Positions 27,099 to 50,400 of a stretch of 64,000 nt of DNA are shown here, one piece after another. The notes beneath the pieces are model-generated. The model saw only the letters and a list, made by a program, of their open reading frames with translations, was not told where the DNA came from and did not search any database. The stretch is from Branchiostoma floridae (taxonomy: Eukaryota; Chordata; Leptocardii; Amphioxiformes; Branchiostomatidae): assembly GCF_000003815.2 (NCBI RefSeq), contig NC_049997.1, positions 8,064,676 to 8,128,675 on the forward strand. The letters are read 5' to 3'. Positions within the stretch are counted from its first letter, which is position 1; the number at the start of each line of letters is the position of its first letter. A program made the translations under genes and the position numbers.

Positions 27099-29879
27099 AT
27101 GTTGGCCTTTTTCTTCGCTACCATCGCCCTTGCGGCGGCACAGTTTGACCAAAACTACCAGTTCGGGAATCTGAACACTCCCATTAACCAGGCTCTCATC
27201 TTCGACTGTGGAAGTACGTATAGTAAAGATTAGGAGTTTGAGAGATTGTGAACTAGACTAAGTAGATGTTACAGCCTACCATATGGATTTTACTTTATAT
27301 CCTATCCTTTGTGTTCTCTAAAATGCGCTAAGGTCTAAGCAGTTGCAAGTGATATGAGCAGTTGCGAATGATGAAGGTAAAATGACTACTACAGTACTAG
27401 TTGGTAGTTTATACTTTGTCTATAAATGTTCTGTAACTTTTTTTTCATTTATTTGGATTCCAGGCAATCCCGATCGGGCTTTGAGAAACCCCAAGTTCGT
27501 TTTCAGCAGGGACGACTTGGAGTTGCCCGGTAGCTTCACTATCATAGACGCCGAGGTAGGACAGATTCAACTACCATAAATAGTTGCCATGGTAAAAATT
27601 GTCCGTTCATTTTTCACAAAAGAAGGCGCATCAGATGTGCTACAAGATAGACAGGATTGTGATAGTGCCAATTTGTATAATACAATGGTCTAATGTGCAC
27701 GTTGTCATCACAGTACCACAGTACCCCAGAGTCTTCCGGTTTCAAACGTCGCACCTAGACTGGCACCGCCATTATCTCTTCGAAGTTTAATGAATGAATG
27801 AAGACCTTTATTGTACGTTTTTGCTTTCTAACAAGCTAAGTACAGGTCAATGTGAATAGGATACATCCCCTAGTGATTCTAAGTACAATCTGTGAAACAT
27901 GTGATACATGACTGGAACTACAAAGTCTAAAGTATTCTAGTACTACTACTAGTATGTATAGTTTCAACTCTTTCTCGCTTCTTAATACAGTCGTAAATGT
28001 AGTTGCAGGTGGAGTTTAGAATACATGGTTTGTCTAATTGCACTAGAAATGGCATTCAAAAGTAACACCAACTCTCAAAAGTACACCGGATACGATGATA
28101 CCACTACATAAGAAAACAATACATGAATTCAAACTTATTTAAAGAGATGTACCAATGTAGCATTAGTAATCCTGAGGTAACGTTACAGTAACGTTATATA
28201 CACTTAATCAGATATTTAGGCGTATGAGACGGACTCTATAACATTTCTTTTCTGTGGCGGTTTTTCGGCACCCATTTGAATTACGGGAGTTGGTATTAGG
28301 TATTAGAAAATGATTAAATGAACGAAAATGACGTGGTACAAACAAGCGCATTTCTACTACGGTGATGTAACGTTAGAAATGTTCTAATTGTTCTCATATA
28401 CTTTAAATTTCTACCGTAGATCGAGGTAGCCAAGCCCATCAATAGACCATTGTACGGCAAGATAGACGCCTGGAGAACCATCTACCTGTTCGGTGGTGCG
28501 GCTTCAACTATCCAGCTGGGCTGTTTCTATCTGTCAGGCAAGGACTATGGCGTTGGAAGTTGGTGAGTTGTTTTTTTGTTTAAAGTTTATGTTCTTTGAA
28601 TTACATCTATTAGGGCATGTTCTACTTTTTCCATACCCCAGTAGTGTGCGTAAGCCCAGTAGTTTTTTTCCTCTATTCATTTCTGTTGTGTATTTTTCCT
28701 ACAGTGACTACGGGGAACTTTGCGGGCTTTTGGACCTGAACACACCAGTCAACAACATTACTGGTGAACTGACCTGTTACGAGGAGGCGATGAACCTGGG
28801 TATCCCGGAGGACCAGTGCACGTGTGAGGGGATCGCGCCCAAGGTCTACAGCCTGAGCAACTGGTACAAGGAGGTGGACCTGACCGACTTGGAGAGTGGT
28901 GTCCTCACATTCCTGGCCCAGGTAGGTCTTCAAGGATCTGTATAATACCCCTTGTCACATTATCCACGATTTTCGGGCGTATCGATGGAAGATCGGCTAT
29001 ATTTTAGATCGACAGAGGTTTGCGCGTATTTTTCACCTGAAAACCGTCCCTGTCACATATAAGCTATACTTTGTACCTTGTACAACTGTTGTGCAATAAA
29101 GTTATTATTATTACAAGCAAGGCTCGGGCGATTACCACAGAATCGTCGTCCGATCGATTTTCGCCAAATGTGACAGGGTTATTAAGCCACGCATACGTCG
29201 CATTTCCAAACCGGGGCTCGGCGGGGCTGTTTATACAAACGATAAAAAAAGAGAAATGTATACGTAAGAATATACATAACTAATGCCCATGACTATTCTC
29301 TTCACGTCTTGTGTAGTTTAAAGTCTTGATCATCATTTTCGTTCCCGAAAGCTGCCTGACCGGGTCCCGGTTTTTTAAAAATATGACGTAGGCATTACAC
29401 TACCTCTCACCGGCAGGAACTTATCGGCCTCCTAGCGGCTATAACCACTAAGTCACATGTGAGTGTTAAAATCAACATGGGGCCCGGCAACAAATTATGA
29501 AAATATCAGAGGTACCTCCGTGGTATCTAGTAGTCCACCGGGACAAATCAAAGCCCGGTCGGGCTACACCCCCTATGGGCACCATTGGAAATGGGATCTT
29601 AGCATAAGACAAAGATCTTTTAGAAACATAAACATGACAAATTGGAATAAACTGTCGTTAGATATGGCTTTAGAGCTACACTCTGCACATCATTTGAACG
29701 TTAATGTTTACTTTTATTCGTAGGGAGACTATGAGATCAAGATGACGGCCACAGACGCTAGCGGTGCGGAGCAGGCCTGTATCGGCATCAGGGTGCCGGT
29801 GAAGGAGTATGAGGACCCCAACGCCACTGACAGCGGCTGGTTCTTCGGCAAGAGGAAGCGCTCAGCAAAGTTGCTGTAA
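27099..29879 (+). CDS. GM2A-like: GM2 activator-like secreted lipid-binding protein, copy 1
   Basis: Five coding exons: 27099-27213, 27464-27555, 28420-28562, 28705-28921 and 29724-29879. All introns are GT-AG (phases 1, 0, 2, 0) and the spliced CDS is 723 nt (240 aa). Residues 1-15 form a hydrophobic signal peptide ending in AAAQ. Cysteines at 37, 104, 117, 123, 141, 155, 157 and 208 follow the order of the four-disulfide GM2 ganglioside activator, including the QCTC pair and the terminal ACIGI strand. By family knowledge this fold is a cup that lifts glycolipids from membranes for lysosomal hydrolases; the substrate here is unknown. N-glycosylation sequons are at N134 and N222. The tail after residue 217 reads DSGWFFGKRKR plus five residues, which vertebrate GM2A as I recall it lacks. 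The start codon is the first ATG about 60 nt after the TATA box and opens the signal peptide. Family call is sure; function is inferred. Confidence 0.87.
27785..27845 (-). repeat. LINE/SINE 3' tail in intron 2 of gene 1
   Basis: Reads on the - strand as GTACAATAAAGGTCTTCATT with (CATT)n, a typical retroposon end. Confidence 0.5.
28947..29172. mobile_element. Inverted-repeat element in intron 4 of gene 1
   Basis: The left end CCTTGTCACATT...GATTTTCGGGCG pairs with the right end CGTCCGATCGATTTTCGCC...TGTGACAGGG. Inside is a LINE-like tail TTGTGCAATAAAGTTATTAT. Confidence 0.5.
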
Positions 29880-29897
29880 TTTCAGCACACAAAACTG

Positions 29898-29955
29898 TGA
29901 CGTCACTGACGTCATCACAGAAAACATCGACGCCCTCTCGCGAAAGTTGACGTCA
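29898..29955 (+). promoter_or_regulatory. TGACGTCA cluster in 3' UTR of gene 1
   Basis: Three exact TGACGTCA palindromes at 29898, 29907 and 29948, two of them followed by TCACAGAA. All lie between the stop codon and the AATAAA. The motif equals the cAMP-response element in DNA; whether it acts as DNA or RNA is unknown. Confidence 0.5.
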
Positions 29956-30011
29956 TCACAGAACGTTTAGACATCTTCAGAGTAGAACGATAGTTGATGC
30001 ACTTTTGTTGG

Positions 30012-30017
30012 AATAAA
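30012..30017 (+). terminator. Polyadenylation signal, gene 1
   Basis: AATAAA about 135 nt after the stop; a second AATAAA follows near 30058 after a T-run. Confidence 0.6.
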
Positions 30018-30385
30018 CTGAATGGGAAGAACATGAAATTGTTGTTCTTTTTTTTTTAATAAAAAATCAATTAAAAGTACGAGCGATGAATGCGAAGGTC
30101 TTTATTTTTGTTGTAAGGTGGTTTTGACATGACATTGATCTAAGCTGGTACACTATGATACTGATAAAACCACTGGTGGGTGGCCTTGCCCCAGGGCGTA
30201 ATATGATTAACTTGAAAAAAGTATTTTGGACAAACAAGCAAGCTGAGGTTCATACTGTATGTATTACTGAGAAATCGTCTGGTCACCAAATGATATGAAA
30301 TGTAGACTAATGGGGGAGGGGGTAAGAGAACGGAAGGGGACCTAGTTCATCTATCCAATAACTATTATAATTCATAACCCTTAAA

Positions 30386-30633
30386 GTGCACTCTCACTGC
30401 ACTTGCGTCACTCTTGCGTCACTGCGGGGTTCGAAAGATACTCAACGAATTTTAGAGATAAAGAACGAATTTTCTTACGTACTTTTTGTGTATTTCGTCA
30501 TCTTCCAAGTCATACCTAAACTTATAACCCAATATCTAGATTATAAAAAAATCCGGAGAAAATAACAAAACAGTGACGCCGTGAACGAACCCCACGCTGA
30601 CGCAAACTTGACGCAAGTGCAGTGAGAGTGCAC
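30386..30633. mobile_element. MITE of the GCACTTGCGTC family, best copy
   Basis: 248 nt with near-perfect ends GTGCACTCTCACTGCACTTG and CAAGTGCAGTGAGAGTGCAC. Lies between genes 1 and 2. Confidence 0.75.
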
Positions 30634-31267
30634 CCTAACCCTAACACAACAGCTGCCTTAAATCACGTACTTTGTTGAGCTATATAAAGTACAGTCACTG
30701 GGGACAAAGTGCCGCTTGTGAGTGCCTCGTGCAAATGTGTGATCGGAAATCCTATCTTTTGTGAGTGATATTTTTACGCACGGCCTACGTCACACACAAG
30801 TTAATAAATACATTATAATAGACACAGTCAGACAAATGTGATCTTCGCCGGGTGAAGGACGTTTTGTTTTTGCTACCTGAAAAAATCATGAGACAAAATT
30901 TAAAATGAATTCCGAAAATGCCATATATTTTCCATGAATCAGCGACTTAACACGATCGTACGACTTATGAACGCTGATTGGTACGAAGATACGAAATGTC
31001 TTACGTATCCAAGGGCGCAGATGGTCTACATATTTGACAATTTTGACTATTTGACTACTTCTTATTTTACAAAGTAAATATATGATAATTAGATATCATT
31101 ATACTAAATCCTAATTACATTGCATCCTTTACGTTCAATGATGTGTGTACATACCGGCGCAAACTAATTTTTTGTGTAAAAATAACTCGGAAGTTTTCAA
31201 ACTGTGGGAGAAAGATGAGCTCTTGCCAGCTGTGTATACACAAGTCCTGATAGGTAAAGGTCTTCGG

Positions 31268-31276
31268 TACAAATAA
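31268..31276 (+). promoter_or_regulatory. Degenerate TATA-like box of activator-like gene 2
   Basis: TACAAATAA lies 64 nt before the ATG, the same distance as the TATA boxes of copies 1 and 4. It is probably the eroded equivalent, so initiation may be weaker. Confidence 0.4.
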
Positions 31277-31331
31277 CATGGACTAGGTCAGAAAAACACA
31301 GTCCACAGAGAGAAGACAAGTCGTTGACAAC

Positions 31332-34137
31332 ATGTTGGTATTTTTCCTCGCCACCATTGCCGCAGTGTCGGCACAGACAGTGTATGATTCTACCTACCAG
31401 TTTGGATCTCTAGCCAGTCCCATCGACAATGTCGTGGTTTTCGACTGTGGCTGTAAGTTTCATTTTCTAAATGTTGTGATAAAACATCAACATATTACTG
31501 GAATATCTTTCTTATTTCTGTCAGAATTAGGTTTGAAATACCAAAGTCATATTACGTTGATATAGATGAAACTTCGTATCCCGGAAATGTCTGAAATTGA
31601 TAGATTCTTTCACCTAGCTACTTAAGTTAAATTTGAAGCAAGTATAAGTAAGACGTGTAATTTAGTCTTACATAACAGCTGTTTATTAGATATTATATGG
31701 TTACAAATGAATCGGCTTTTGATTGTATCATGTGGTAAATTTTATTCAGCAAATCGCAAGGAAACCATCATGTACTATGTTATGCTCGTACTATATCATC
31801 TCCTTAATAATTTTATGTTTACATATTTCAGCTAATCCTGACCGCGCCTTCAAAAACTGGCAGTTCGTATTTGACAGAACTGATCTGGAGTTGCCGGGCA
31901 TTTTCACCATTATCGACTTTGATGTGAGTCATCACAACTTTTCTCACTAGAAATATATATAAGATACTATTTGTAGATGTGAGTATACTAACTCGCGCGT
32001 TTTCTGTGAATAGTAGGTGAAACGATATAGATTTGATACATGTATTGTCTTCCATTACCTTCATCTAGAAGGGTATGTTTTGGTTGTGTTTGAATACACG
32101 TTGTATGCATTCGTTTTGTCAGCATAACTCAAGAAGCCGTGGATAGATTGCCATTAATTTGGTATGTAGGTAGGTAATGTATTTTGGCCCCCTGGCGGGT
32201 TCCAAGGTACCACAGTAGAGCTTCCGGTTTTGCTATCTGGTGTCCAGAAGACGCTATGGACTTGTAGATATGTAGGTATCACTTGGGTTTGGGAGGAAGT
32301 GGCATAAGCTTGGGCCTTCAAGCAGTTTCTTTTGAACTTCAAGGGCGTTTCAGTTAGAGATCTTTAAACAGGATAAGTCAAAAAGAGTTGACATTTTTTT
32401 TCTTTCAGTCACGAATGTTGTCAAATGGTACGCAGTTTGTGGTTGAAAGTTGTAGCCTTCAAGACTATCATCAGTTCAGTTCATATGAAAATTTAACATT
32501 CTGATTAAGAATTGTTATCAATATCTGGGAATAGAACCTCCTTAATCAGGTTGTTTTCTCCTCCCTTGTAGGTTGATGTAACGAAGCAGGTTGTAGGACC
32601 TCTGTTCGCGCGGATCGAAGCCTGGCGGGCCATCTGGCTGTTCGGCGGGATCGGCACCACCATCCAGGTCCCCTGCCTGCCGGTGGACCCTGTGTACGGC
32701 GTCGGGACATGGTAAGGCTAAGGTCACATTTCCAAACCGGGGCCCGGTCGGGCAGCTTTCGGGAGCGAAAAGTATGATACAAATGCAAATATGTGATGTC
32801 CTTGACTTTGAACTTTGACTTTGAACTTCCCCGGCCTTCAGATGTTTTGAAACTCAAGTTTTAACGTTAAGTTCAAGGTAACCCTGTACAATGTCACCAA
32901 TGGTTTTCGAAAAAAAAGGGATTAGATTTTCACAAATATGACAGATTATCTTTGGTTCTTAAGATTTCTTTCATTCGGCTTCTCGGACTCGTTGTCACGC
33001 TAAAGCCAGACTACTACATTGTTGAATATTTGTGTAAAACCCTCTTCTCTAGATCTCTTCTCTTTAAAAAATGAAAGACATGCCCTTTATTACCTACCGT
33101 AGATTCCACTTGATATAGTTCACTAGTATTGCAGTAACTGAAATTGTTGTAATATAATGTATATGTGTAGTATCAGTCTGTAACTTTTATTATCTATAAC
33201 TTGTTATACATTGTCAAGTGTTGCGCAATGAATCATCATAAATCATGAATAAATCTCTCGCCAGTGAGTACGGAGACCTTTGCCAGATTCTGACAGACGG
33301 GAAGCCCTTCGACGCCATGTCTAACAGCACGGTTTGTTACGAGGACGGACTTCTCCTGGGCATCAATCCTGACCAGTGTGGCTGTGAGGGCATGGCGCCC
33401 AAACACTACGGCATCAAGGGGTGGAACAAACTCATCGACTTGTCAGGGCTGGAGTCAGGCATTCTCACCTTCCTCGCCTCGGTAACTTGTGTATTCTTTG
33501 ATACCATGAGTATTGTATTCAGTTTGTTTGTTTGTTTGTCTTGGTGTGTGTTCGTGTTTATTTGATCATGACTATTGTAGAGTGGCAAGATGGAAGTGGT
33601 CTGGCTTGTATCCAATCGTGTGGTAAAAAACTCATCGTTTGATTTCCTACTGGAGCCAAGCATTCTTCTCTTCCTTGCTTCGGTCTTCTTTTTGTAGTCA
33701 GTTTGTGTATCTATTTGTTTGTTTTGGTGTGCGCCCGCAATTATTTGAATATTTCAGAGCGGCAATATGTAAGACTGAAGTTTTGTGGTAGGATACTTGA
33801 AACGTTGGAAGTTTAGTTAAGCTAGTGTCCAAAATCCAGTCCAATGCACCATGAGTTGCGACTCTCCAAGAGAGCATAACCTCTGCTTGGAGAGTAGTAA
33901 TTGGCAAAGTTTAAATCGTACACGTCTAAGAAGGTAATTTATCAAATTGCAATGCTTATTCTGTGTTTGTTGTGTTATTATTTGTTAATATAGGGAGACT
34001 ATGAGCTCAGGGCAACGGCTACAGACGCTAGCGGTGTGGAGCAGGCCTGTATCGGTATCAGAGTCCCGGTCAAGGAATATGTGGATCCAAATGCCGGCGG
34101 CGGATGGCTTTTTGGCAAGAAGAAGCGATCCAACTAA
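31332..34137 (+). CDS. GM2A-like: GM2 activator-like secreted lipid-binding protein, copy 2
   Basis: Exons 31332-31452, 31832-31923, 32572-32711, 33265-33481 and 33994-34137 splice to 714 nt (237 aa), with the same intron positions and phases as its neighbours. Signal peptide MLVFFLATIAAVSAQ is followed by the shared YQFG motif. Eight cysteines lie at 39, 106, 118, 124, 142, 156, 158 and 209. This is the most diverged copy: the exon 4 loop is DGKPFDAMSNST instead of LNTPxxxxTG, the CxC pair is CGC rather than CTC, and exon 3 is one codon shorter than in copy 1. N138 is a glycosylation sequon. The C-terminus is GGGWLFGKKKRSN. The terminal exon shares a long near-identical stretch with copy 1 (ATDASG, EQACIGIRVPVKEY), which suggests gene conversion or recent duplication of that exon. 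It probably binds a lipid in the secretory or lysosomal compartment. Confidence 0.87.
33861..33902. repeat. Fragment of the CTCCAAGCAGAGGTT hairpin family
   Basis: ACCTCTGCTTGGAGAGTAGT in intron 4 of gene 2 matches the right arm of the hairpin at 738-870. Confidence 0.6.
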
Positions 34138-34139
34138 CT

Positions 34140-34195
34140 CTGACGTATACACACAAAGTAATGACGTCGGCACAGCATTCACTACGTCATTGAAG
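34140..34195 (+). promoter_or_regulatory. Degenerate TGACGT cluster in 3' UTR of gene 2
   Basis: TGACGTAT, TGACGTCGGCACAG and TACGTCA follow the stop codon, the same arrangement as in the paralogues but with no perfect palindrome. Confidence 0.4.
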
Positions 34196-34225
34196 AAAAT
34201 ATATGTACGAAGGTTTTTGCGGTTG

Positions 34226-34231
34226 AAATAA
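34226..34231 (+). terminator. Polyadenylation signal, gene 2
   Basis: AATAAA about 90 nt after the stop, followed by a GT-rich stretch (TGTCTGTGTTTTG). Confidence 0.6.
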
Positions 34232-35261
34232 AAGAGTCGTAAGGAACATGTCTGTGTTTTGCTTTACTTATTCACATACTGCTTTATTGCCAACAGTAAA
34301 CGCATAGAGAAATCAGAGACAATCAGGCAACCAAAGAAAATGGACAGAGTGGAGTGCAATAATTGATTGAGCTGCTAACGTTCCATGAAAAGAGTTATAT
34401 CGGTGCGAATACGAGTGCTAGTATCACATGGTACATGAATAGAAGTAACTTTTAAATGCATTTCATTCTAAACCGTTTTATATCTTGGGAGCTGGGATAA
34501 TGAATTTAAAACAGCTCAGAATTAGTAGGTACAAACGTGTGTGTTGGTTAGGCAATACTAATTGCTAAACTTTATTTCCAACACTGAATTAATATAGGGA
34601 CTTACCCTAAATTTTCGGTCAAACTCCATCGATCTTGTTCACAGAATGACCCTCTCTATCTCCAGCAGTGACGTCAGGAACACTCCACTTTTGCAGGAGG
34701 GGGTCATAAGTATCAGAAAGTCTATGTTGCCCCCCGTCTCTGTTGAGTGTGGGCCGGTGGGCTCTAATGTACACTGCAATACTAATATTGTTAAAATGTT
34801 GTATTTTGGTGTCATAGGTGTCGTAATCCGAACTTAAAGACACTAACGTTATATTGTGAAATGTCGACTTACTTATCTAGCAGCTGAGTACACAGTTGAC
34901 TTCGCACAGACTAAGAGCGAACTGTGCAAATGGCATACTATGCCCGGTTTAATCTGTACTTCATTTTTTCAATCGACGGCACAGGTTATAATCTATTTTC
35001 TTCATTATATAATGTTAAGTTTTTACAAGTTTAAAAGACAAAAATTCTGATTCGGGAATTCTTCCTCAGGTAGCATGAAACCTGCAATGATTCTAAACAA
35101 ATCCTTTCGTGAACATCACTTATAGTCTTTTTTATTTGTCTTCGGACGAGTAAGGATATTATAGCACTGCACTCAAGTTATTAACTTGTTTTGACAGTGC
35201 CACATACAGAGAAGATTAAGATAAATAACGCAAAGTTTACAATGCTACACCTGGTTGACGT

Positions 35262-35400
35262 GAGAAAAGTCGTGTTTAGTGCCTTTCCTAAGGGTCCAAG
35301 GTCGGTAGCATGACAAGATTTGAACCCAGAACCTCTGGGTTCAGAACCTCTGGGTTCAGGGGCAAAAAAACGTATACCCTGCAGTTATGCCACGCGACCC
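35262..35400 (-). repeat. tRNA-derived SINE-like repeat
   Basis: On the - strand GGTTCTGGGTTCAAATCTTG resembles a Pol III B box, followed by CCTTAGGAAAGGCAC. Contains a tandem AACCTCTGGGTTCAG pair. Confidence 0.4.
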
Positions 35401-35540
35401 CATGTCAGCTTATAGTCCATGGTCTTATCTTCTTGTTATTGTCATTCTCAACGGTTCGAACTAGAGGACAGTGAACCACTTCCGTTCTATCTTATCCACA
35501 CTTTAAAAACATGATGATGCAATATTGCATTACCCCAAGT

Positions 35541-35975
35541 TAGGCCGCACTGCCTTAATTTTATGGATGACATCCGCGCGCGCATTGATTTTCTAAAAAA
35601 AAAAGAAAAACAAAACAAAACAACAACACTAGTACTGGTCACATGTACATGTTACAAAATAGCATCCATGGCCAATCATAATGCATGTTTCGCAGACGAT
35701 ATGCTCTGTGGGGAAAAGGGGCACATGGGGCCACAGCTCCCTTGTTCCATCTTTAAACAATAATGGCAACATAGTAGAAAAGGCGACGATTATTTCTTAC
35801 AGTCTTACGAAAGGTGAGCATAAGACAAACCTAGCTTGGGAAATAATGGTCTGTATGTTTAGTCTTATGGTTAAGCAGCATTTTATTGCTGGAGTTTTCT
35901 TTTTTCTCCCGCGCGCATTAGATTTGGGGTGCCCAGAGGATGTCATCCATAAAATTAAGTCGGTGTGGCCTTACA
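35541..35975. mobile_element. DNA element with TAAGGCC...GGATGACATCC ends
   Basis: TTAATTTTATGGATGACATC at the left is matched by GATGTCATCCATAAAATTAA at the right, with flanking TAGGCCGCAC/GTGTGGCCTTA; about 435 nt. A related end lies at 54303-54360 in SLC37. Its right edge is within 20 nt of the TATA box of gene 3. Confidence 0.65.
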
Positions 35976-35990
35976 TTTCAACAGAAATAG

Positions 35991-35998
35991 TATAAATA
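35991..35998 (+). promoter_or_regulatory. TATA box of activator-like gene 3
   Basis: TATAAATA lies 82 nt before the ATG. The miniature transposon 35541-35975 ends less than 20 nt upstream, so anything upstream of the core promoter comes from that insertion. Confidence 0.7.
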
Positions 35999-36072
35999 CG
36001 TATACCTCCGGGGCATTGTGACTGCAGCCGTCAGTGTTTCACCGTTAAAACATCGACAAGGTTTGGGGCACC

Positions 36073-39000
36073 ATGCTGATACTACTCCTGTCCACGCTCG
36101 CCCTTGCAGGGGCGCAGCACTTCGACGAACACTACCCGTTCGGGCAGCTGCAACAGCCAGTCGACACGGCGTTGGTTTTCGACTGTGGAAGTAAGCTATC
36201 CGTACATGATAATGATTCATATACTTGGTAATAAGTAGCCCTTCGCCTTTTTGAGACCGTAGGGGCAGTGGGTGTTTATGTTATACATTGTGTCTAGGGC
36301 ACAGTAATGGGAGTCGAGGCGGAACCAAACCCCCTCCTTCCATCGAATTTACCACCCCACCACCCAACCGAAATCATGTACCAATTGTTACTCCTAGGTG
36401 GAGTATGGAAAATCCTGTTAATTACCTTTCCAAAGGGCACAGGGTTGATAGAATGACTGGATTCGAATCCAGGATCTCTAAAGCATAGGGTTTGGTTGAA
36501 TGCTTACGCTATTAACACTGCTACAACCATACATATCTATATGTCACTACCATTGTTTCGTGATTAAAATGAAAACCTGTTTGGTGAATTTTTAGGCAAC
36601 CCGAACCGTGCGATCAAGAACCCGAAGTTTACCTTCCAGAGTACTGACCCTAACGCGGACCCTAACCAACAAAGTCTGACGCTTCCCGGCTCTTTCATCC
36701 TCCAGGACTTCGAGGTAGGTGAAGACTTGGTGTCTCATATATTTGTGGGCATCTAGCTAGGGTTACCGACCATTGTTACACCCCTGTTTCAACACTCTCG
36801 ATACGACCATGTTCCAACACCCCTAAAGGTAGTACTATAGTATCACACTGCACTTGCGTCACGTTTGCGTTGCTGCGGGGTTCGTTAACTGCTGCACTGT
36901 TGTGTTACTTTTTCTGATTTTTTAAATACTTTAGATATTGCGTAATACGTAAAGGTATGACTTAGAAGACAACAAAATACACAAAACGTAAGAAATTCGT
37001 TCTATATCTCCTAAGTTCGTTGAGTATCTTTCGAACCCCGTAGTGACGCAAGCGTGACACAAGTGCAATGAGATAGCACCTTAAGTTACGACAGGGGAAG
37101 CTTGAAGGAATGTATCAAAGCAAGGATGTTGATTAAAGTGTAACTGGCTCCTCCCAACAGAGGAGGCTGGGCAGATGCTGAGCGGGCTGCTATAAGCAAG
37201 ATTTAATCAGGCAGTTTCATGTTATATATCACAGCTACTGTTTTTTTTCTTCTACTGTTCTAGATTGAAGTGACGAAGCCGATCGCCAGGCCCTTTAACG
37301 GGAGAGTGGAGGCTTGGAGAACCATCTGGCTGTTCGGCGGAACCCCGAGTACCGTCCAGCTGGGGTGCTTCCCACTTACCACCGACAATGTCGTGGGAAT
37401 AGACGGTCTGGGAACTTGGTAAGTCTAGGAATGTGGTTTAGTTTCCGAGAAGTTCATAAAGATCCAGTGTCCCAGCGTTTTCGCTCCTACCACCCCGTAC
37501 GTAATTTCGCTGTAAAATCGTTTTACACCTGTTTTTACAACATTCCCTGGTACACTTCTAGGATCCTCTAGCTAAGATAAGCTTACGTCGAAACCTTGAA
37601 AATTAAACACCAGAAAAAGAGTAAATTTGTGAAACACACTCACACACACACACACACACACACGCGCGCGCAACAAAAACACTGAGAATGAGCTGGGTCC
37701 TTACATCTACTTGGTGATATGATACGTCAGGACAAAACCTTTCGCTGTAAGGTATGAAAAATGATCAAAAAATTGGAATTGGTACATTGGCACTTATTGA
37801 GGGATGAAAGAATATTACTTGCTATGTTCAGTATGTTAAAAATGTATCCAGTGTCACTGACGAAAACTGGTGGATTCCAGTTGAAACGTCTGATCGTTTC
37901 CAAAATCATATCCAGTTGCTTGAGTAACTGCTTTTTGGCATAAAAATGTATCATATTCCTACAGTGACTATGGCGAGCTGTGTTCAATCCTGGACCTGAA
38001 CACGCCTATCGATGACGTCACTGGTCAGCTGACGTGTTTCCCTGAGGCGATAGCTCAGGGCATCCCGGAGGACCAGTGCACTTGTGAAGGTTTGTTGGTT
38101 TGTTGCACATAACCGGTACTTTTGGGCGTTAAGCAACAACTTTGTACAATAAAGCTAGTCTGAGATTTACCCTCTACCAGGCTCCTTGGATCGCTGGTCA
38201 AATAGAAGAAATTGGACAAATAGTCAGTCTAGCCGGCCGACTCATCCAGCTGTCGAGATGGCATAAGACAGTATCAAAGCTGGCCAAGGAGAACAGTTGG
38301 CCAAAGGAATGTCAGTCGGTCAGGTGTGGCTTTGCTCAATGACACTGAATTCACGATCATTGCTCAGGTTGTCTCTGTTGCAATCTGAATAGAATCAAGT
38401 ATGTCTCATCAGGGGAGACGCCCCTAGCGCAAACTTGATGCTCCGATTGATCGAGGAAACATATATATAATATAGGTTTTAAGTGCTTCCTCCAATAGCA
38501 CAACTTTGATTCAACCTCAGGACCTATAGATTCTAAACTGCCATAATCAAAGGACTACCTTTCCACCATGACCAGGTATCATCGCCCCCAAGGTCTACTC
38601 AGCCCCGAACTACAACAGGCTCATTGACTTCAGCGACTTGGAGTCGGGGCTGCTGACGTTCCTGGCCGAGGTGAGATAATGGTTCCATGGACATATGTCA
38701 AAAGTTCCTATGCAGTGCCATAGAAAGCCATGTGATGGTTCAAACTTGAAGCAAGAGGGACTTTTGCGGTATGTACGCATGCACAAAATATAACTGCCCA
38801 CTCACAACAGTTAAAGTACATGCCTACCCCCACGATGTACGATGGTCAAGACCTGTTAGTTCCAGGGTCACAGACTATCTCTTCTAATTCTCAATAGGCC
38901 ATTACAAGCTGATAGACTCGTAACCAGCTTAGCAGAATGGAAAAGAATATCCTGGTAAAATAAGCAGGGTGCGAAGTTGACTTCCAACCACCTGTTGCCG

Positions 39001-39299
39001 ATTCATTACGTAATACTATGAGTCCTAAGCAAAAGTATCATACACCCTGAAGAAGGCCGGAGGTCCGGTCGGAAGATTGATTGATTGAAAGTCATACTTC
39101 TAAATGGTTTGGAGATAGCGAGCCTAATAATGAAATGTTGTCGTAAATTTGGTTTGCATTTTAGGGTGACTACGAGTTCAAGTTGATCGCTGAAGACGCT
39201 AACGGAAACGAGGAGGCCTGTATCGGCATCAGGGTTCCTATTAAGGAGTACGTGGATCCCGACGCCGGTGGCGGCTGGCTTTTCGGCAGGCGGCGCTAA
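36073..39299 (+). CDS. GM2A-like: GM2 activator-like secreted lipid-binding protein, copy 3 (extra intron)
   Basis: Six coding exons: 36073-36190, 36596-36714, 37264-37418, 37965-38089, 38576-38670 and 39165-39299; the CDS is 747 nt (248 aa). Signal peptide MLILLLSTLALAGAQ is nearly identical to copy 4. All eight activator cysteines are kept. There are two private changes. Exon 2 is 27 nt longer, with DPNADPNQQ inserted before the conserved LPG strand. The exon that is single in the other three genes is split after the CTCEG motif by a 486-nt intron (38090-38575). The donor there is GTTTGT and the acceptor ACCAG, and joining them restores GIIAPK exactly as in copy 4. The protein ends GGGWLFGRRR at the stop codon. 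It is most like copy 4 overall, notably in exons 1 and 3. The family role is glycolipid presentation; the actual ligand is not known. Confidence 0.85.
36397..36535 (-). repeat. tRNA-derived SINE-like repeat
   Basis: On the - strand TCCTGGATTCGAATCCAGTC (B-box-like) then CCCTTTGGAAAGG, the same layout as 35262-35400. Lies in intron 1 of gene 3. Confidence 0.4.
36829..37082. mobile_element. MITE of the GCACTTGCGTC family
   Basis: CACTGCACTTGCGTCACGTT at the left and GTGACACAAGTGCAATGAGA at the right. Inserted in intron 2 of gene 3. Confidence 0.65.
37853..37940 (+). repeat. Penelope-type fragment with hammerhead-like core
   Basis: CTGACGA, a stem AACTGG/CCAGTT, then GAAAC resembles the CUGAUGA...GAAA core of hammerhead motifs found in Penelope-like elements, with one core substitution. 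Related pieces are at 25828, 39048, 41308 and 44240. Confidence 0.4.
38090..38575 (+). other. Copy-specific intron of gene 3
   Basis: Intron absent from the equivalent exon of the three paralogues. Both splice junctions sit in AGGT (GAAGGTTTG and CCAGGTATC). Inside, CTCCTTGGATC, TGGCATAAGACAGTATCAAA and GCTGGCCAAGGAG resemble the element at 49916-50083. Confidence 0.7.
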
Positions 39300-39308
39300 A
39301 TCAGGCAC

Positions 39309-39408
39309 TGACGTCAATACTTTGTACAATGACGTCTACACAGGATCCACTGACGTATTAAGTACTGTCGCATCGACAATGACGTCAGCACAGGATTCAG
39401 TGACGTTA
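39309..39408 (+). promoter_or_regulatory. TGACGTCA cluster in 3' UTR of gene 3
   Basis: Five TGACGT cores in 100 nt (39309, 39330, 39351, 39380, 39401). Two are full TGACGTCA, and several are followed by the CACAGGAT(T/C)CA spacer. Confidence 0.5.
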
Positions 39409-39428
39409 AACAACGCTGATCAGTTACC

Positions 39429-39434
39429 AATAAA
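39429..39434 (+). terminator. Polyadenylation signal, gene 3
   Basis: AATAAA in ACCAATAAAACGAGG, about 130 nt after the stop and just past the TGACGT cluster. Confidence 0.6.
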
Positions 39435-39439
39435 ACGAG

Positions 39440-40860
39440 GATTGTGAATCACGTGTCTATAGTATTTCATTTATGAAATTTAGGACTTGAGCTCTTGGAT
39501 ATAAAAAAGATAATTCATAGTTTTCACGTCTTGCCAAGGTTTGATATTGAAGTAAATAACAGCCTTTTGGAATAAATGTCAAATAAGGTAGTTGACCTTT
39601 ATCCGCGGGGTAACCTATATTCGTTGTTTTTAAAATCCGTATTTTGGGATATCAAGTCGACGGACAGTGGTTTCAAATCGCAATTTATATTAAAAAATAT
39701 TACTGATATCGCTGTATACCCCTCTATACAACGGATATAGGTTGCCTCTCGGGTAAATGTGAACTATCGTTAGCGACACACAGTTGCAAGATAAATCTTT
39801 TGTCATAAACCATTTCATACTGTGGACTTATGCAAATATCAAGCATTTTAGAGGGCTTGAAATGACCATAGAAGAGATGTGAATGATATGACGCCATTGA
39901 AAAAAAGGTATTCGACGGATAACTTACCTAATTGTAGTGGCTCTTTATAATCATTTGCAGATTGGGTGCAGACAAAATTAAAGAGATGTACATGTGTACC
40001 CTTGATATGTTCAATGACTATAGTGTATGAGAACAGTCACATAACAAGGTAAAAGTCACAAATATTGCTGTGACCTTACTGACAAAACTGATGACCTTAC
40101 TCTCATAACAATGTATGAGAAAATCCATAAAATTAAATTGAAATGGAAATTCATGTCAGTCATTTTACATACTTCTATGTGTCCCTGAGATAACCGGATG
40201 TAAAGTTCATATTCGTTTGTTTAAGATACTGCTAGCAAATTTTATCTTAGATTGAACACATACACACCGGTACCTGTGTGCATATTTGAACAATAGTATA
40301 CAAAAATGACTATGTGCATAAAAAATTAGCTGGTAGAAATATCGACAGTTTTTAAGTAATATGTTAGTACGTTTTCTGAGGCACCACGACACCCTCTCTA
40401 AGATTTCAACCATAGACCATATGAAGACAATGTCGATGCTCCCCAAAAATATTTGAGTTGATTATAATCGATTTTAGTAGTTCTCGTATGGGTCCGATAA
40501 CAAATCGACAGCATTCGTTAGACAGTTGTAGGTAAATATCAAATAAAATTCATCTGTATTGTTACAGAAAAGGCTGCGTTAGATCTTTGTCTGCGGTTGG
40601 TTTTATCACAGGCTGCTTGTAAATGCTACGTCGACATCAAAATTGTATGGCTGCCGGTTAATGTGTCCGCACTGTACAAAATTGCAAAGGTACCGTTAGG
40701 ATAAACTAACGGACATGTGCACATGCACTAAGTTAAGTACCTTCGGAACCTTCCGTTCCTACAAATTTATCTGTTTGCTTTAATATACAATTTTAACTTA
40801 GTTCACATCCTTTGGTAAATATTGCAAAGCCCAGGCAGAAGAGTGTCCTTGCCTGATCAA
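39440..40860. other. Intergenic DNA between genes 3 and 4
   Basis: No gene or clear repeat seen. Confidence 0.4.
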
Positions 40861-40870
40861 ACACAAGTGG

Positions 40871-40878
40871 TATATATA
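40871..40878 (+). promoter_or_regulatory. TATA box of activator-like gene 4
   Basis: TATATATA lies 63 nt before the ATG, matching the spacing in copy 1. Confidence 0.65.
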
Positions 40879-40933
40879 CCCGACGTTATGCGTGAGCAGC
40901 AGTGTTTTGCAGCCAGGACACCGTCAGGACACC

Positions 40934-43900
40934 ATGCTGATACTACTCCTCTCCACGCTAGCCCTGGTAGGGGCGCAGCACTACGACGAGCACTACCAGT
41001 TCGGGCATCTCGCCCGCCCCATTGACGACATTGTGGTCTTCGACTGTGGAAGTAAGTAATAAGAATTCTACTTTGAAACACACTAAAAAGATTTGGTTGG
41101 TAAACTTATAACTAACGTTACTACATGAACGTCGTGTGAATTGGGGTCGACATTCCTTTTCGACTTTCATTCTTTGACTTGTAGTTATTCTTCTGACAGT
41201 CATAAAATCAAGAAAGAGCACAAAGGATTCTTAAACAACTAAATTCATTCTGCGGTAACAACTCTTCGGGCTTTTGGTCACTTCTTAAAGAGTACAAATC
41301 TAATGACAAAACTGACGATCACGAAACGATTGTAGCTGAAAACCTACACTCGGGGGTTTTCGTCTTCCTCAGTCTGCTTCCAAAAGGAAGTCAGGCCCAA
41401 CCTGTTTAGCTATTAGAAATAGCCAACACTAGTATTCAATTACTCTATTTTTACAATAATGTTTATCACTATCCATTATCACATGTATGCTCCCTATGTT
41501 TCTACCATGTACTTGCAATTATCCTCTGGGATATGAACTTGCAAATAAAACTTCTTTGCAAAATTCAGTTGTCTTGTGATGGAGATGTTACCGTGCGTCG
41601 GTAATTTGTTGTGTCCTAACAGTCCCTCGCACGACGTACTCGCATCTGTGGCCCAAGAAAGAAAGTATAAGATATCCTTGCCAATACTCCTGAACCAGGG
41701 GTGCCTACCTACCTACCTAGTCCCTTGACCTCCAGGTCGTTGGGGGGACAAGGTAGCCAAGAAGATAGAGAGTTGCCTCCAGGTTCGTCTCTCCCTAGCC
41801 AGGGTTAACCTCTCCTGTAGGCTGAGGCCCGTCCAGTCAGCAATGTTATCCTGCCAAGCTTTCCGTTGTCGTCCACGCCGACGCCCTCCCTCCACCGTGC
41901 CCTGGAGGATCGTCTTGGCCAGGTTGTTGTGTCGGGTAACATGCCCGAACCACTGCAGTCTGCGTCTTTTAACTGTTGCTAGGAGTGGTTCTTGAGGGCC
42001 AACGAGGCGCCATTCGACGAGTGCTAAGCCTACACTGACTAAACTCATCAGTGACGGCCTATAGAACTGAACTGCAATTCGTACTGGACTGTAAAATTGA
42101 TGTTGACATGTTCGAACAGAGATCTACTTGTAATTGTGATAGTCCGAAACTAACATATCTATATTGATTGTAATCTAGATGTTATTTGTACATATTGTAA
42201 TTCCGTAAACAGTTTCATGTCGTATTGACAACGTTGCGCTAGTTTCACTGTATTCTAAAGCGGCGCAATTCAGTTTTTTTTACTGCAAAGCCGATTTGAC
42301 ACATGGTGTTTTTTTATCAATGCTTTGAGGCAAATTAAAGTTTTATTTCTCAATCTCCAGGCAACCCCAACCGTGCGATAAAGAACCCAAAGTTCACCTT
42401 CAGCAGGAATGACCTGGAACTGCCAGGTACCATTACCATCTATGACATGGAGGTGAGTAGGCAGCTCAATTTGCCTTTGATATTTTTTTAAAATTAGGTT
42501 CGTAGGACTTGATGTTACCATCATGAAGATGAAGAGCGGCCCATAGCGATAACTGTAGCAGCATCTCTTCTCCCTAAGTCAGAAACATCAAGCTTGGGCA
42601 AGCTTGACTTCACTGACTCAAAAGGCGAAGCAGGGGTTACGTGGGTGCTCGGGAAATTCCCTACCCCATTTGGCCGAAATGGTTTGATCCGCTTACATCG
42701 CACCATCGCACATGTGGCAGGTTCTTTTACGTGCCCGGGGTATGGCCCTCCCCAGATACGGGACCTCCAATTAACGTCCTATCCGAGGGAGGGCATTTGC
42801 ATCATTCACCTAGAGCAGGGACTCGCCCGCGGTCTATGAAATATGCCTTGGGAGGTTTTACTAAACAGGGCTGAGGTTTCCACTTTTGTAGGCGTGTCCT
42901 CTAACCAGATGTCACCCAATCAGAGAACCGCCTAATTGTTCTCTCTAGGTAAATCCGGTTCTCCGATTGGATGACAGCTGGTTAGAGGCCCGACATACAT
43001 CCATACAAAGTAGAAACCTCAGTCTGACATAGCTTTAACTCGGAGATTTTGTTGACAACATACATCATGCGATATACAGTCATGCGATATGTTTTTGACT
43101 AGATTGAAGTGACAAAGCCCATCACCAGGCCCTTCAACGGGAGGGTGGAGGCTTGGAGAACCATCTGGCTTCTCGGTGGGGCCGGCAGCACCATCCAGAT
43201 CGGCTGCTTCGGCCTCACAAGCTCCGGTACGATAGGACTGGACGGTGTGGGAACATGGTGGGAGTTATCCTCTTTTTTATATGCATCAATCATAAAGCAA
43301 ATCAGAAACATGGGTTCGAAGATGTCCTAACTCAGTGAGATGTTCAGAGTTTCACGTATGCCTTGTGAGCGCGACTAGCAAAGACAAAAAAACTTCGACA
43401 GACCGAGCGAAACCACAACTCGCCATAAATTTGAAGCTTCCGATCCTTAGTATATGACCTGGACTGCCATTTTTGATCAAAAACTATAACTAGCTAAACC
43501 ACCTCTGACCTGTACTTTCTGTACTACAACTAGTTTGCATTTTCGGTCATCTTCCCATTCACTGGATCATGTCACTTAGTCCAGGGGCATAGCTGAAAAA
43601 TTGTGAAAATTTGCCTAAAGCACCAAATTTGGCACACATGCAGTTGAATGTATTCTAAACAAAAATAGATATGGAGGCATCTCAAGTTCTACCCAGAATT
43701 GATTTTATAGCACTTTTTTGGGCATTTTTAGACCAAAAATGTATATTTTGGGCTTCTGTGCCCAGGTTTTTTTTAATCCAAATGACCTGAAATTTTGAAT
43801 GGAGGTGCCTATAGCATATAACTCAAACACTTACCAAGCCCAACTTAGGCAACTATCTCACACATGTCAAATGTAGGTGGTGGGTATCTAATTGCTGAAT

Positions 43901-44828
43901 GATCTCTATTTTCTTTTATTTCAGCGACTACGGGGAACTTTGCAACATTTTGGACCAGAACACGCCAATCAACGACACCACGGGTGAACTGACCTGTTTC
44001 GAGGAGGCGATGAACCAGGGAATCCCGAAGGACCAGTGCACGTGTGAGGGCATCATCGCGCCCAAGACCTACTCCATCACCAACTGGAACAAGGAAGTAG
44101 ACCTGTTGGACCTCGAAGCGGGGTTGATCACTTTCCTTGCGGAGGTGGGCTTAAAGATTACTTTCTTTCCACATTTAGCATGATACCAGTAAGTTACGCC
44201 TAAAGAAGTTACTCATTGACAAGCATCTAGATATGATTTGTCCAGTTCTAAATCATATCCAGTTGTTTGAGTAACTGCTTTGTGGTGCATCTTATTACCT
44301 GGATGTCTAACCTTCATCGACGTACCAGTGAGGTAGTTCTGCATTCTAAAAGGTCTTTCACATACAGTCCTCAATTTGTTTTCGGTGTGAGTGTATCTGT
44401 TTGTTTGCTTGTATACCGGTAATTATTTAGATGCAGTAGAGAACCTAGTTTTAACATGTAATCTTCGCCAGGGACACCTGCACGAAGTTAGGTCAAAAGT
44501 CCCAGAATAGGTCATCTCATTTCCTGTCTGTAGTTTCCTGCTATATTCGTGTCAGTTGCTTCAAACGGGAGTCGTTTGAACAAGTGCATTGGACAAAATC
44601 AGTGAGGACTTCAGAAAAGGAATTAAAAAAGAGAATAAGCAAGAAAAATATTTTACGGAGATATAAGAGACCTTTTTTTCTCTGTCGCAGGGTGACTACG
44701 AATTGAAGCTGATCGCTGAAGACGCTAACGGAAACGAGGAGGCCTGTATCGGCATCACGTTGGCAGTGAAGGAGTGGGTGGATCCTAACGACACTGGGGG
44801 CGGCTGGCTCTTCGGCAAGAGGCGCTAA
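40934..44828 (+). CDS. GM2A-like: GM2 activator-like secreted lipid-binding protein, copy 4
   Basis: Exons 40934-41051, 42361-42452, 43103-43257, 43925-44144 and 44691-44828 give a 723-nt CDS (240 aa). Signal peptide MLILLLSTLALVGAQ precedes HYDEHYQFG. The eight cysteines match the activator fold, including DQCTCEG in exon 4 and EEACIGI in exon 5. Exon 3 encodes VTKPITRPFNGRVEAWRT, almost identical to copy 3 at the DNA level, so these two are the youngest pair. The tail is GGGWLFGKRR and then the stop. Intron 1 is the longest in the cluster and carries an antisense LINE relic; intron 2 carries a palindromic miniature element. The first intron donor GTAAGT is strong, while exon 3 uses a weaker GTGGGA. 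It lies about 2.6 kb from the convergent SLC37 gene. Lipid-binding role is inferred from family. Confidence 0.87.
41704..42048 (-). mobile_element. Antisense LINE relic (reverse transcriptase C-terminus) with AGGT tail
   Basis: On the - strand a 111-codon frame contains KRRRLQWFGHVTRHNN, GRRRGRQRKAWQDNI and DWTGLS. This is the C-terminal region of non-LTR retrotransposon polyproteins downstream of the polymerase. It is followed on the same strand by repeats of TAGG (41704-41722), a microsatellite tail like those of RTE-type elements. Only the 3' end of the element is present. It sits inside intron 1 of the fourth activator-like gene, opposite to that gene, and is not a host gene. Confidence 0.75.
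42871..43022. mobile_element. Near-palindromic MITE in intron 2 of gene 4
   Basis: CTGAGGTTTCCACTTTTGTA at the left and TACAAAGTAGAAACCTCAG at the right, with inner CTCTAACCAG/CTGGTTAGAG and CAATCAGAGAACCG/CGGTTCTCCGATTG; 152 nt. Confidence 0.75.
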
Positions 44829-44837
44829 ACCAGGCAC

Positions 44838-44902
44838 TGACGTCAGCACAGTTTTCAATGACGTCAATTGGCGTGACGTCAGCACAGTTTTCAATGACGT
44901 AC
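44838..44902 (+). promoter_or_regulatory. TGACGTCA cluster in 3' UTR of gene 4
   Basis: TGACGTCA at 44838, 44859 and 44874 and TGACGTAC at 44895. The unit GACGTCAGCACAGTTTTCAA occurs twice, so part of the UTR is tandemly duplicated. Confidence 0.5.
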
Positions 44903-47451: not shown

Positions 47452-50400
47452 TCACGTAACAGTGGATGCCTCTGGTTTACAGCAACGTTCACACCAGCCT
47501 TTCATCTCCTTCACAAATAGTCTCAACAGGAACTGGAAAAAAATGGCATCATGAGTTCAATAGAGTAATGGCAACATGAGTTCAATAGAGTAAAAAAAAT
47601 GGCATCATGAGTTCAATAGAGTAATGGCAACATGAGTTCAATAGAGTAAAAAAAATGGCATCATGAGTTCAATAGAGTAATGGCAACATGAGTTCAATAG
47701 AGTAAAAAAATGGCATCATGAGTTCAATAGAGTAATGGCAACATGAGTTCAATAGAGTAAAAAAATGGCATCATGAGTTCAATAGAGTAATGGCAACATG
47801 AGTTCAATAGAGTAAAAAAATGGCATCATGAGTTCAATCAAGATAAGTCTGAGTGGAGAAGAAGGATCCATTGCGACCCGTGATGACATCCCTGATGTCC
47901 ACGTTCAAGGTTCAAGGGTTCAAGGACAACATATGAAAAGAGACGGGACCAACACACAAAATCGTGAATACACAAAGATCTGCAAGACTATTAGAAAGAA
48001 CATGGCGCGAGAGATTGCAGCCTATAATGAGAACGAGCAGCTAGAAGCACTGGAAGCCTCCAGAGGACTGAAGTCTGTCAGAAAGAAACAAGTCCTTGGC
48101 AGGAATAAGATGACAACTCTTAAGGAAGAAGATGGTACACTGATCCACGACCTTGACAGAATGGTAAAAAGATGTGAGGAATTCTACGCAAACCTGTACA
48201 GTACAAGACAAACACCTAACACCACAGGAAATACAACTAGTAATGAACAAAACACAGAACAAACACCTCCAATCATGCCATCTGAGGTACGAGCTGCCAT
48301 ACAACGGTTAAAGCTAAACAAAGCCCCAGGGGATGACAACATTACAGCAAGCATCCTGAAGGCTGGAGGAGAACCCCTTGTAAATAAGCTCACGCAGATG
48401 TTCAACAAATGCCTGAGGGAGGGCAAAGTTCCAACTGCTTGGAAAAATGCCTCCATTGTTCTCATCCACAAGAAGGGCGACACAAATGACATCAAAAACT
48501 ACCGTCCAATCAGACTGCTGTCAGTGATCTACAAAGTCTTCTCGCAAATCCTTCTGTGGAGAATGATGACGACTCTAGACCAACACATAACACGAGAACA
48601 AGCTGGATTTAGGTCTAAATTCTCCACCATTGATCACATCCAAGTTGTCAGCCAACTCCAGGAAAAGGCCAATGAATACAAAATTCCACTATGTTTTGCA
48701 TTTGTGGACTATGAAAAGGCGTTCGACTCCATCGAATTTGAGCCGATATTCACAGCACTCGAACACCAAGGTGTTGACCCAGAAATCATCACTCTTATAC
48801 GTGACCTATTAAATGGAGCAACATCCACCCTCAGACTCCATAAAGACAGTGAAAAGATCAAAATGGAAAGAGGAGCACGGCAAGGTGACAGTCTCCAGGA
48901 TGCCATCATCAACAAGATCAACTGGGAGGAAAGAGGGATAAACATTGATGGTGAATACCCGTCCCATCTCCTATTTGCAGATGACATCATCCTAGTGGCA
49001 ACCTCACCACAAGAACTGGAAGAAATGCTACAAGACATACATGATGCTAGCAAGCCAGTAGGTCTCAACATGCACCTAGGGAAGACCAAGGTGATGTATA
49101 ACAAACATGTAGACAAAGCTCCAGTAGTGATAAGTGGAGAAGGAGTAGAACAGGTTAAAAGCTACATCTACCTAGGAAGAAAAGTGTCAGAAGATGGAAG
49201 TCTCCTGCCAGAGATCAAGAGACATATCACACTGGGATGGACAGCTTTTGGAAAAGTGGACAACATCATGAAAAGCCATAAGGTGAGTATAGGACTTAAG
49301 AGAAAAGTTTTTAACCAGTACATTCTCCCAGTGATGACTTACGGAAGCGAGACATGGGCACTAACCACTACTCAGATGGAGATTCTTCGAGTTGCTCAGA
49401 GGAAAATGGAACGGGTAATGCTAGGCATCACACTCCGTGACAGGAAAAGAAACTCCTGGATCCGACTCCAGACAGGAGTTACAGACATCATCACAGCAGT
49501 AAACACAGCTAAACACCCCTGGGCAGGACACGTAGCAAGGCTACAGGACAACAGGTGGACACTACGGGTCACGGAGTGGACTCCCAGAGAATGGAGGAGA
49601 CCCAGAGGGAGGCCATGCACCAGGGGGAGAGACAGCCTGCAGAAACACCTAGGCCCCACCTGGCCACAGACTGCAAGATGCAGAAGAGTCTGGAACAGTT
49701 CAAGGGAGGGGTTCCTCAAAGAGAGCGACAATACCCTGCCATGAGTGAGTGAGTGAGCGAAAAAAAAAAATTCCGAAGACTTAATCAACCTTTGTAAGCA
49801 ATCTGCCTCATGTCAAGCTCTTATAATATAAAGACAATATTTTTTTCATGTCATTTCATCAAACTGAGAGGTGAGTTTGACAACTAGTTGTGACAGATAG
49901 ATCAATGATACACTATCTCCAAGCAGATCCTACAATGGCATAAGATAGTACCAAACTGGCCAAGGAGTGTAGTCAGTCAAGAGGTGTCCTTTTACCATGT
50001 AGCCAAACACACTCCTCAGCCGGCTTCACTCCTCTGCCAGCTTTTGATACTATCTTATGCTACCGTAGGATCTACTTGGAGATTACATGCTACACACAGT
50101 CAACTCAGATTTAAACCTACCAGACAGGCCAGTACATCCGAAGCCATGAGCATGTAGAAGACGTTGTCCCATTGGGCAGCACGTTGGCCTGCTCCTGCCT
50201 TGTTGAGGATGATACCAGCCAACAGTGGGCCAACCGCAGCACCTGTTACAAGAAGAACAAGAGGAAGAAGAACTTTATTGCGCAACGACCGTACACGGTA
50301 CAATGTATGGCAAAAAAAAGAAGAAACAAACTTATCATCCTAATTACTAAAACAAGTATCAAACTTAGTACATATGCAGATTATGAATATTGAATGAAAT

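Follow-up and report, generated by a model that had tools for sequence, protein, structure and literature searches.

Four tandem GM2A-like genes of Branchiostoma floridae encode a shared aromatic-Gly-basic C-terminal tail that fits an amidation or trimming signal

The window analysed here, a 64-kb stretch of the Branchiostoma floridae genome (C19:8064676-8128675), contains four tandem intron-containing genes, A to D, all on the + strand, whose spliced translations, read from joined exons, are 237-248 aa long. Gene A (27099..29879) has an open spliced frame of 240 aa in five exons (27099-27213, 27464-27555, 28420-28562, 28705-28921, and 29724-29879). Gene B (31332..34137) encodes 237 aa in five exons (31332-31452, 31832-31923, 32572-32711, 33265-33481, and 33994-34137), and gene D (40934..44828) encodes 240 aa, also in five (40934-41051, 42361-42452, 43103-43257, 43925-44144, and 44691-44828). 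Gene C (36073..39299) encodes 248 aa in six exons (36073-36190, 36596-36714, 37264-37418, 37965-38089, 38576-38670, and 39165-39299); its extra intron (38090-38575) interrupts a stretch that A, B, and D each encode in one exon. GT and AG bound every intron of the four genes. The first AATAAA lies 89-132 bases 3' of the stop codon in each gene, which, as far as sequence can tell, fits the tail-bearing exons being the last exons. All four N-termini show, by eye, a hydrophobic start with small residues ahead of Gln-15, and the proteins thus appear to begin with a stretch resembling a signal peptide, a prerequisite for the secretory route. Just downstream of the gene cluster, a 642-residue open frame (47816-49744) resembles, by eye, a LINE-type reverse transcriptase.

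All four proteins carry an aromatic-Gly-basic tail, as a preliminary description of this DNA had claimed; the tail is encoded in frame, in the last exon, and immediately 5' of the stop in A-D. The tail of A (29835..29876, + strand) reads GWFFGKRKRSAKLL, that is GWFFGKRKR followed by SAKLL; those of B (34102..34134), C (39273..39296), and D (44802..44825), on the same strand, read GWLFGKKKRSN, GWLFGRRR, and GWLFGKRR, each with the stop codon next. In all four tails, three or four basic residues come after the Gly, and Lys and Arg swap among them (alignment columns 248-250); C and D end at this basic cluster, whereas A and B extend beyond it. The proposed Gly-then-basic processing signal is borne out to the extent that the tails fit Gly-[KR]-[KR], with Gly and then at least two basic residues at the end in 4/4. 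In full, the region beyond the conserved domain described below spans 17-24 residues and comprises a linker of Asp-Pro/Gly type, Trp-Leu/Phe-Phe, and Gly plus basic residues. An N-glycosylation sequon lies just ahead of the tail in A (NATD) and D (NDTG) and in neither B nor C.

Profile comparison identifies A-D as remote relatives of the GM2 activator (GM2A). Aligned by hhalign to a profile of human GM2A, mouse GM2A, and two B. floridae GM2A proteins from contig C5, they scored 61.8 (Prob 96%, E 3.1e-9) over 152 aligned columns at 28% identity, and the best of 200 column shuffles scored 21.7; a variant of this comparison with slightly misplaced C5 exon junctions gave E 1.8e-9. Against human and mouse GM2A alone, the score was 40.2 (Prob 81%, E 1.2e-5), with 26.5 for the best of 200 shuffles. 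Each of A-D contains eight cysteines in GM2A order, all of which align with human GM2A cysteines, and the C-x5-C and C-x-C spacings are common to A-D and GM2A, a member of the ML superfamily (PDB 1G13, human; 2AGC, which we take to be mouse GM2A). Unlike GM2A, the window proteins have a longer N-terminal stretch before the first cysteine, a longer loop between the second and third cysteines, and the C-terminal tail. The alignment ends at the Lys of ...VPVK, with the whole tail beyond it. The supposition that the motif is absent from vertebrate GM2A agrees with its absence from the GM2A chains of the PDB. Pfam and a PDB search both miss the relationship: none of the four proteins matches Pfam PF02221 (ML domain) at E<=1, in contrast to human GM2A and both C5 proteins (3/3), and a PDB search with the four-protein sequence profile returned no GM2A. 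Its only two matches (E 0.075 and 1) were judged chance.

The ordinary GM2A genes of this animal lie elsewhere. With human GM2A as the query against the genome (513 Mb, 431 contigs), all six matches fell on C5 and none in the window; they form two tandem genes at C5:19819589-19826409 (locus read, C5:19817500-19827400), the better of which is 38-52% identical to human GM2A per exon and the other 31-46%. The C5 proteins share the domain and cysteine pattern of A-D but terminate in ...RAELSLTK and ...ELTMSVVSS, and neither has a tail before its stop codon. The exon junctions read in the C5 genes, two per gene, do not coincide with those of A-D. A-D can therefore be ruled out as GM2A orthologues, since human GM2A matches only the tail-less C5 pair; the human matches, the tail-less ends, and the different exon junctions together argue that A-D form a separate, strongly diverged clade. 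The extra intron of gene C lies no more than a few residues from the second C5 junction, in a different phase, and the second C5 gene has, by eye, a GC donor at its last intron. A GM2 activator protein gene of Branchiostoma belcheri was reportedly published by Liu et al. in 2006 (cited in PMC3094310); by its title, it is a lancelet gene of GM2A type, and it could belong to either the C5 or the window kind.

Within this genome, the tail appears to be limited to the A-D clade, as far as our searches reach. A degenerate DNA pattern for GW[LF]FG plus basic residues, which omits CGN codons at the first basic position, matched the 513-Mb genome five times on the forward strand and never on the reverse, compared with 0 and 1 for a control pattern. 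Four of the five matches are the window tails; the fifth, on C6, is taken as chance because the long open frame there is a different one, rich in Gly. Within the limits of that pattern, we reject the idea that the tail is a common cassette of the genome. A last-exon query likewise returned five matches, four in the window and one on C13 (E 1.1), which we discarded because it looks by eye like an HYR-type extracellular domain. With a full-length query, 20/20 of the matches listed lie in the window, and weaker copies may fall below these. Within 50 kb on either side no further gene copies were found; four flanking matches (E 1.6-4.1) look like chance. Searches of the open-licence literature found neither the tail strings nor WLFamide or WFFamide, nothing on the GM2 activator together with C-terminal amidation, and nothing on GM2 activator protein as an invertebrate gene family.

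The preliminary description treated the four genes as recent copies, which does not hold: the duplications are not recent, given a dS of 0.93-1.99 over exons 1-4, mostly diverged introns, and a similarity that is largely restricted to exons. Outside exons, short matches were found within the A-B and C-D pairs. The last exons (29724-29879, 33994-34137, 39165-39299, and 44691-44828) differ from this pattern. Before the linker, their dS is only 0.38 for A-B and 0.28 for C-D, compared with 0.56-1.24 between the pairs, which suggests partial homogenisation or gene conversion within A-B and within C-D. Owing to this low within-pair dS, the tails may represent at most two independent observations. 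The expectation that the motif is kept while its flanks vary was upheld only in part. The core G-W-x-F-G is invariant at 4/5 columns, but this is not significantly above the background of the protein (41% of the remaining mature-protein columns are invariant; binomial P 0.095), and 25/188 five-column windows elsewhere equal or beat it. The ten tail codons, a small number, give dN 0.05-0.35 and dS 0.19-1.58, with dN 0.23-0.46 in exons 1-4. Judged from these alignments, conservation of the tail is real but ordinary.

In secretory proteins, convertase cleavage followed by carboxypeptidase trimming and amidation follows established rules, and Gly followed by basic residues is the general end signal of amidated peptide precursors, as it would be in A-D. 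From the sequences, we infer secretion, the individual processing steps, and the function of the mature terminus as follows. A-D form an old tandem clade of GM2A-like lipid carriers, predicted to be secreted, and the basic run would most likely act as a signal for maturation. In A and B, convertase cleavage would follow the last Arg; C and D already end in the basic residues. Once a carboxypeptidase had removed Lys and Arg, the ends would read ...WLFG or ...WFFG, and the amidating enzyme, wherever present, would convert the terminal Gly to an amide. Both types of gene end would thereby yield one kind of mature end, an uncharged aromatic W-L/F-F-NH2 borne by the entire carrier on its flexible Gly/Asp-Pro arm; this end could insert into membranes or close off the lipid pocket of the carrier itself. 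Of the readings considered, trimming with amidation at the terminus of the whole protein fits the data best, although we put it at slightly less than an even chance.

Several observations count in favour of amidation. Genes that overrun the basic cluster and genes that stop at it predict the same aromatic-Gly end, a tail that depends on charge has no evident need of an invariant Gly, and the tail has been retained despite a synonymous divergence in exons 1-4 that approaches or exceeds one substitution per site. The only dibasic pairs of each protein sit in the tail, so the end is the one place where a dibasic-specific convertase could cut, although 40-53% of shuffled protein bodies lack dibasic pairs too. 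Lancelets do make amidated peptides: PQRF-NH2 peptides were identified by mass spectrometry (PMC4077772). Amidated peptide precursors, amphioxus PQRFamide included, open with a secretory start, which the N-termini of A-D resemble by eye. Counted against amidation are the unexceptional conservation of the core, the low within-pair dS of the last exons, and the type of protein concerned. GM2A is known to be either lysosomal or constitutively secreted, and is not known as typical amidating-granule cargo.

The main rival, clearly less probable but the strongest of the alternatives, is that the tail is retained as an aromatic-plus-basic anchor, in which Trp, Leu, and Phe would lie in the membrane interface and Lys and Arg would bind anionic lipids or glycans, so that the carrier is held at the membrane whose lipid it lifts. 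The aromatic-basic make-up in 4/4 proteins, the interchange of Lys and Arg, and the position of the tail after the Gly/Asp-Pro linker, outside the GM2A domain, are as such an anchor would have them. Yet it leaves the invariant Gly unexplained, and carboxypeptidases of the secretory route usually remove basic residues that, as in C and D, stand at the very C-terminus. It is rather unlikely that the basic residues are trimmed and amidation does not follow, which would give a plain ...WLFG or ...WFFG end. This outcome has sequence signals identical to those of amidation, and a constitutive convertase and carboxypeptidase would suffice for it; however, a bare Gly is a substrate of the amidating enzyme wherever that enzyme is present. 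We consider it quite improbable that the tail is a neutral relic that descent, together with homogenisation of last exons among neighbours, has preserved. Low last-exon dS within A-B and C-D and a conservation not significantly above background speak for this reading, but between the pairs last-exon dS is 0.56-1.24 and the introns have mostly diverged, and the frame, G-W, F, and G persist nonetheless. Release of a small amidated peptide from the carrier, as originally suggested, is not supported, since a second dibasic site was found in 0/4 proteins when dibasic pairs only were counted.

The predicted amidated product would accordingly differ from those of amidated peptide precursors: its precursor lacks a second dibasic site, and the product would be a folded carrier of about 216-230 residues. 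The tail, specific to this clade within the reach of our genome searches, fits an amidation or trimming signal on the whole protein, not on a released peptide. The mature chains of all four proteins are predicted by eye to start with Gln, which raises the speculative, and in our estimate unlikely, prospect that A-D carry caps at both termini, as peptide hormones do: pyroglutamate at the N-terminus and, on the flexible arm, a W-L/F-F-amide at the C-terminus. In such a capped carrier, the amide end could serve as a hydrophobic arm, either plugging the lipid pocket or hooking onto a membrane or a receptor. If amidation of the end is real, a modification best known from small peptide hormones would occur on a whole folded lipid carrier, and the animal would have a second GM2A-like branch, below Pfam detection, beside ordinary GM2A. 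Amidation also makes a sharp prediction, namely one kind of mature C-terminus, W-L/F-F-NH2, out of four differently ended genes.

The 3' UTRs of the four genes carry a repeat of their own. Directly past each stop, TGACGT/ACGTCA occurs in 3-5 copies, many of them about 21 bases apart, in stretches at 29898-29955 (A), 34141-34189 (B), 39309-39406 (C), and 44838-44900 (D). The full TGACGTCA is present in the 3' UTRs of A, C, and D and not in that of B. Of 47 distinct TGACGT/ACGTCA sites in the window, 15 fall in four 3' UTR stretches of about 110 bases. A longer unit, TGACGTCAGCACAGNNTTCA, has three exact matches in the genome, every one of them within gene C or D, and 82 when up to 2 mismatches are allowed, compared with 31 for a control pattern. 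These repeats are possibly a CREB/ATF-type site array or an RNA element.
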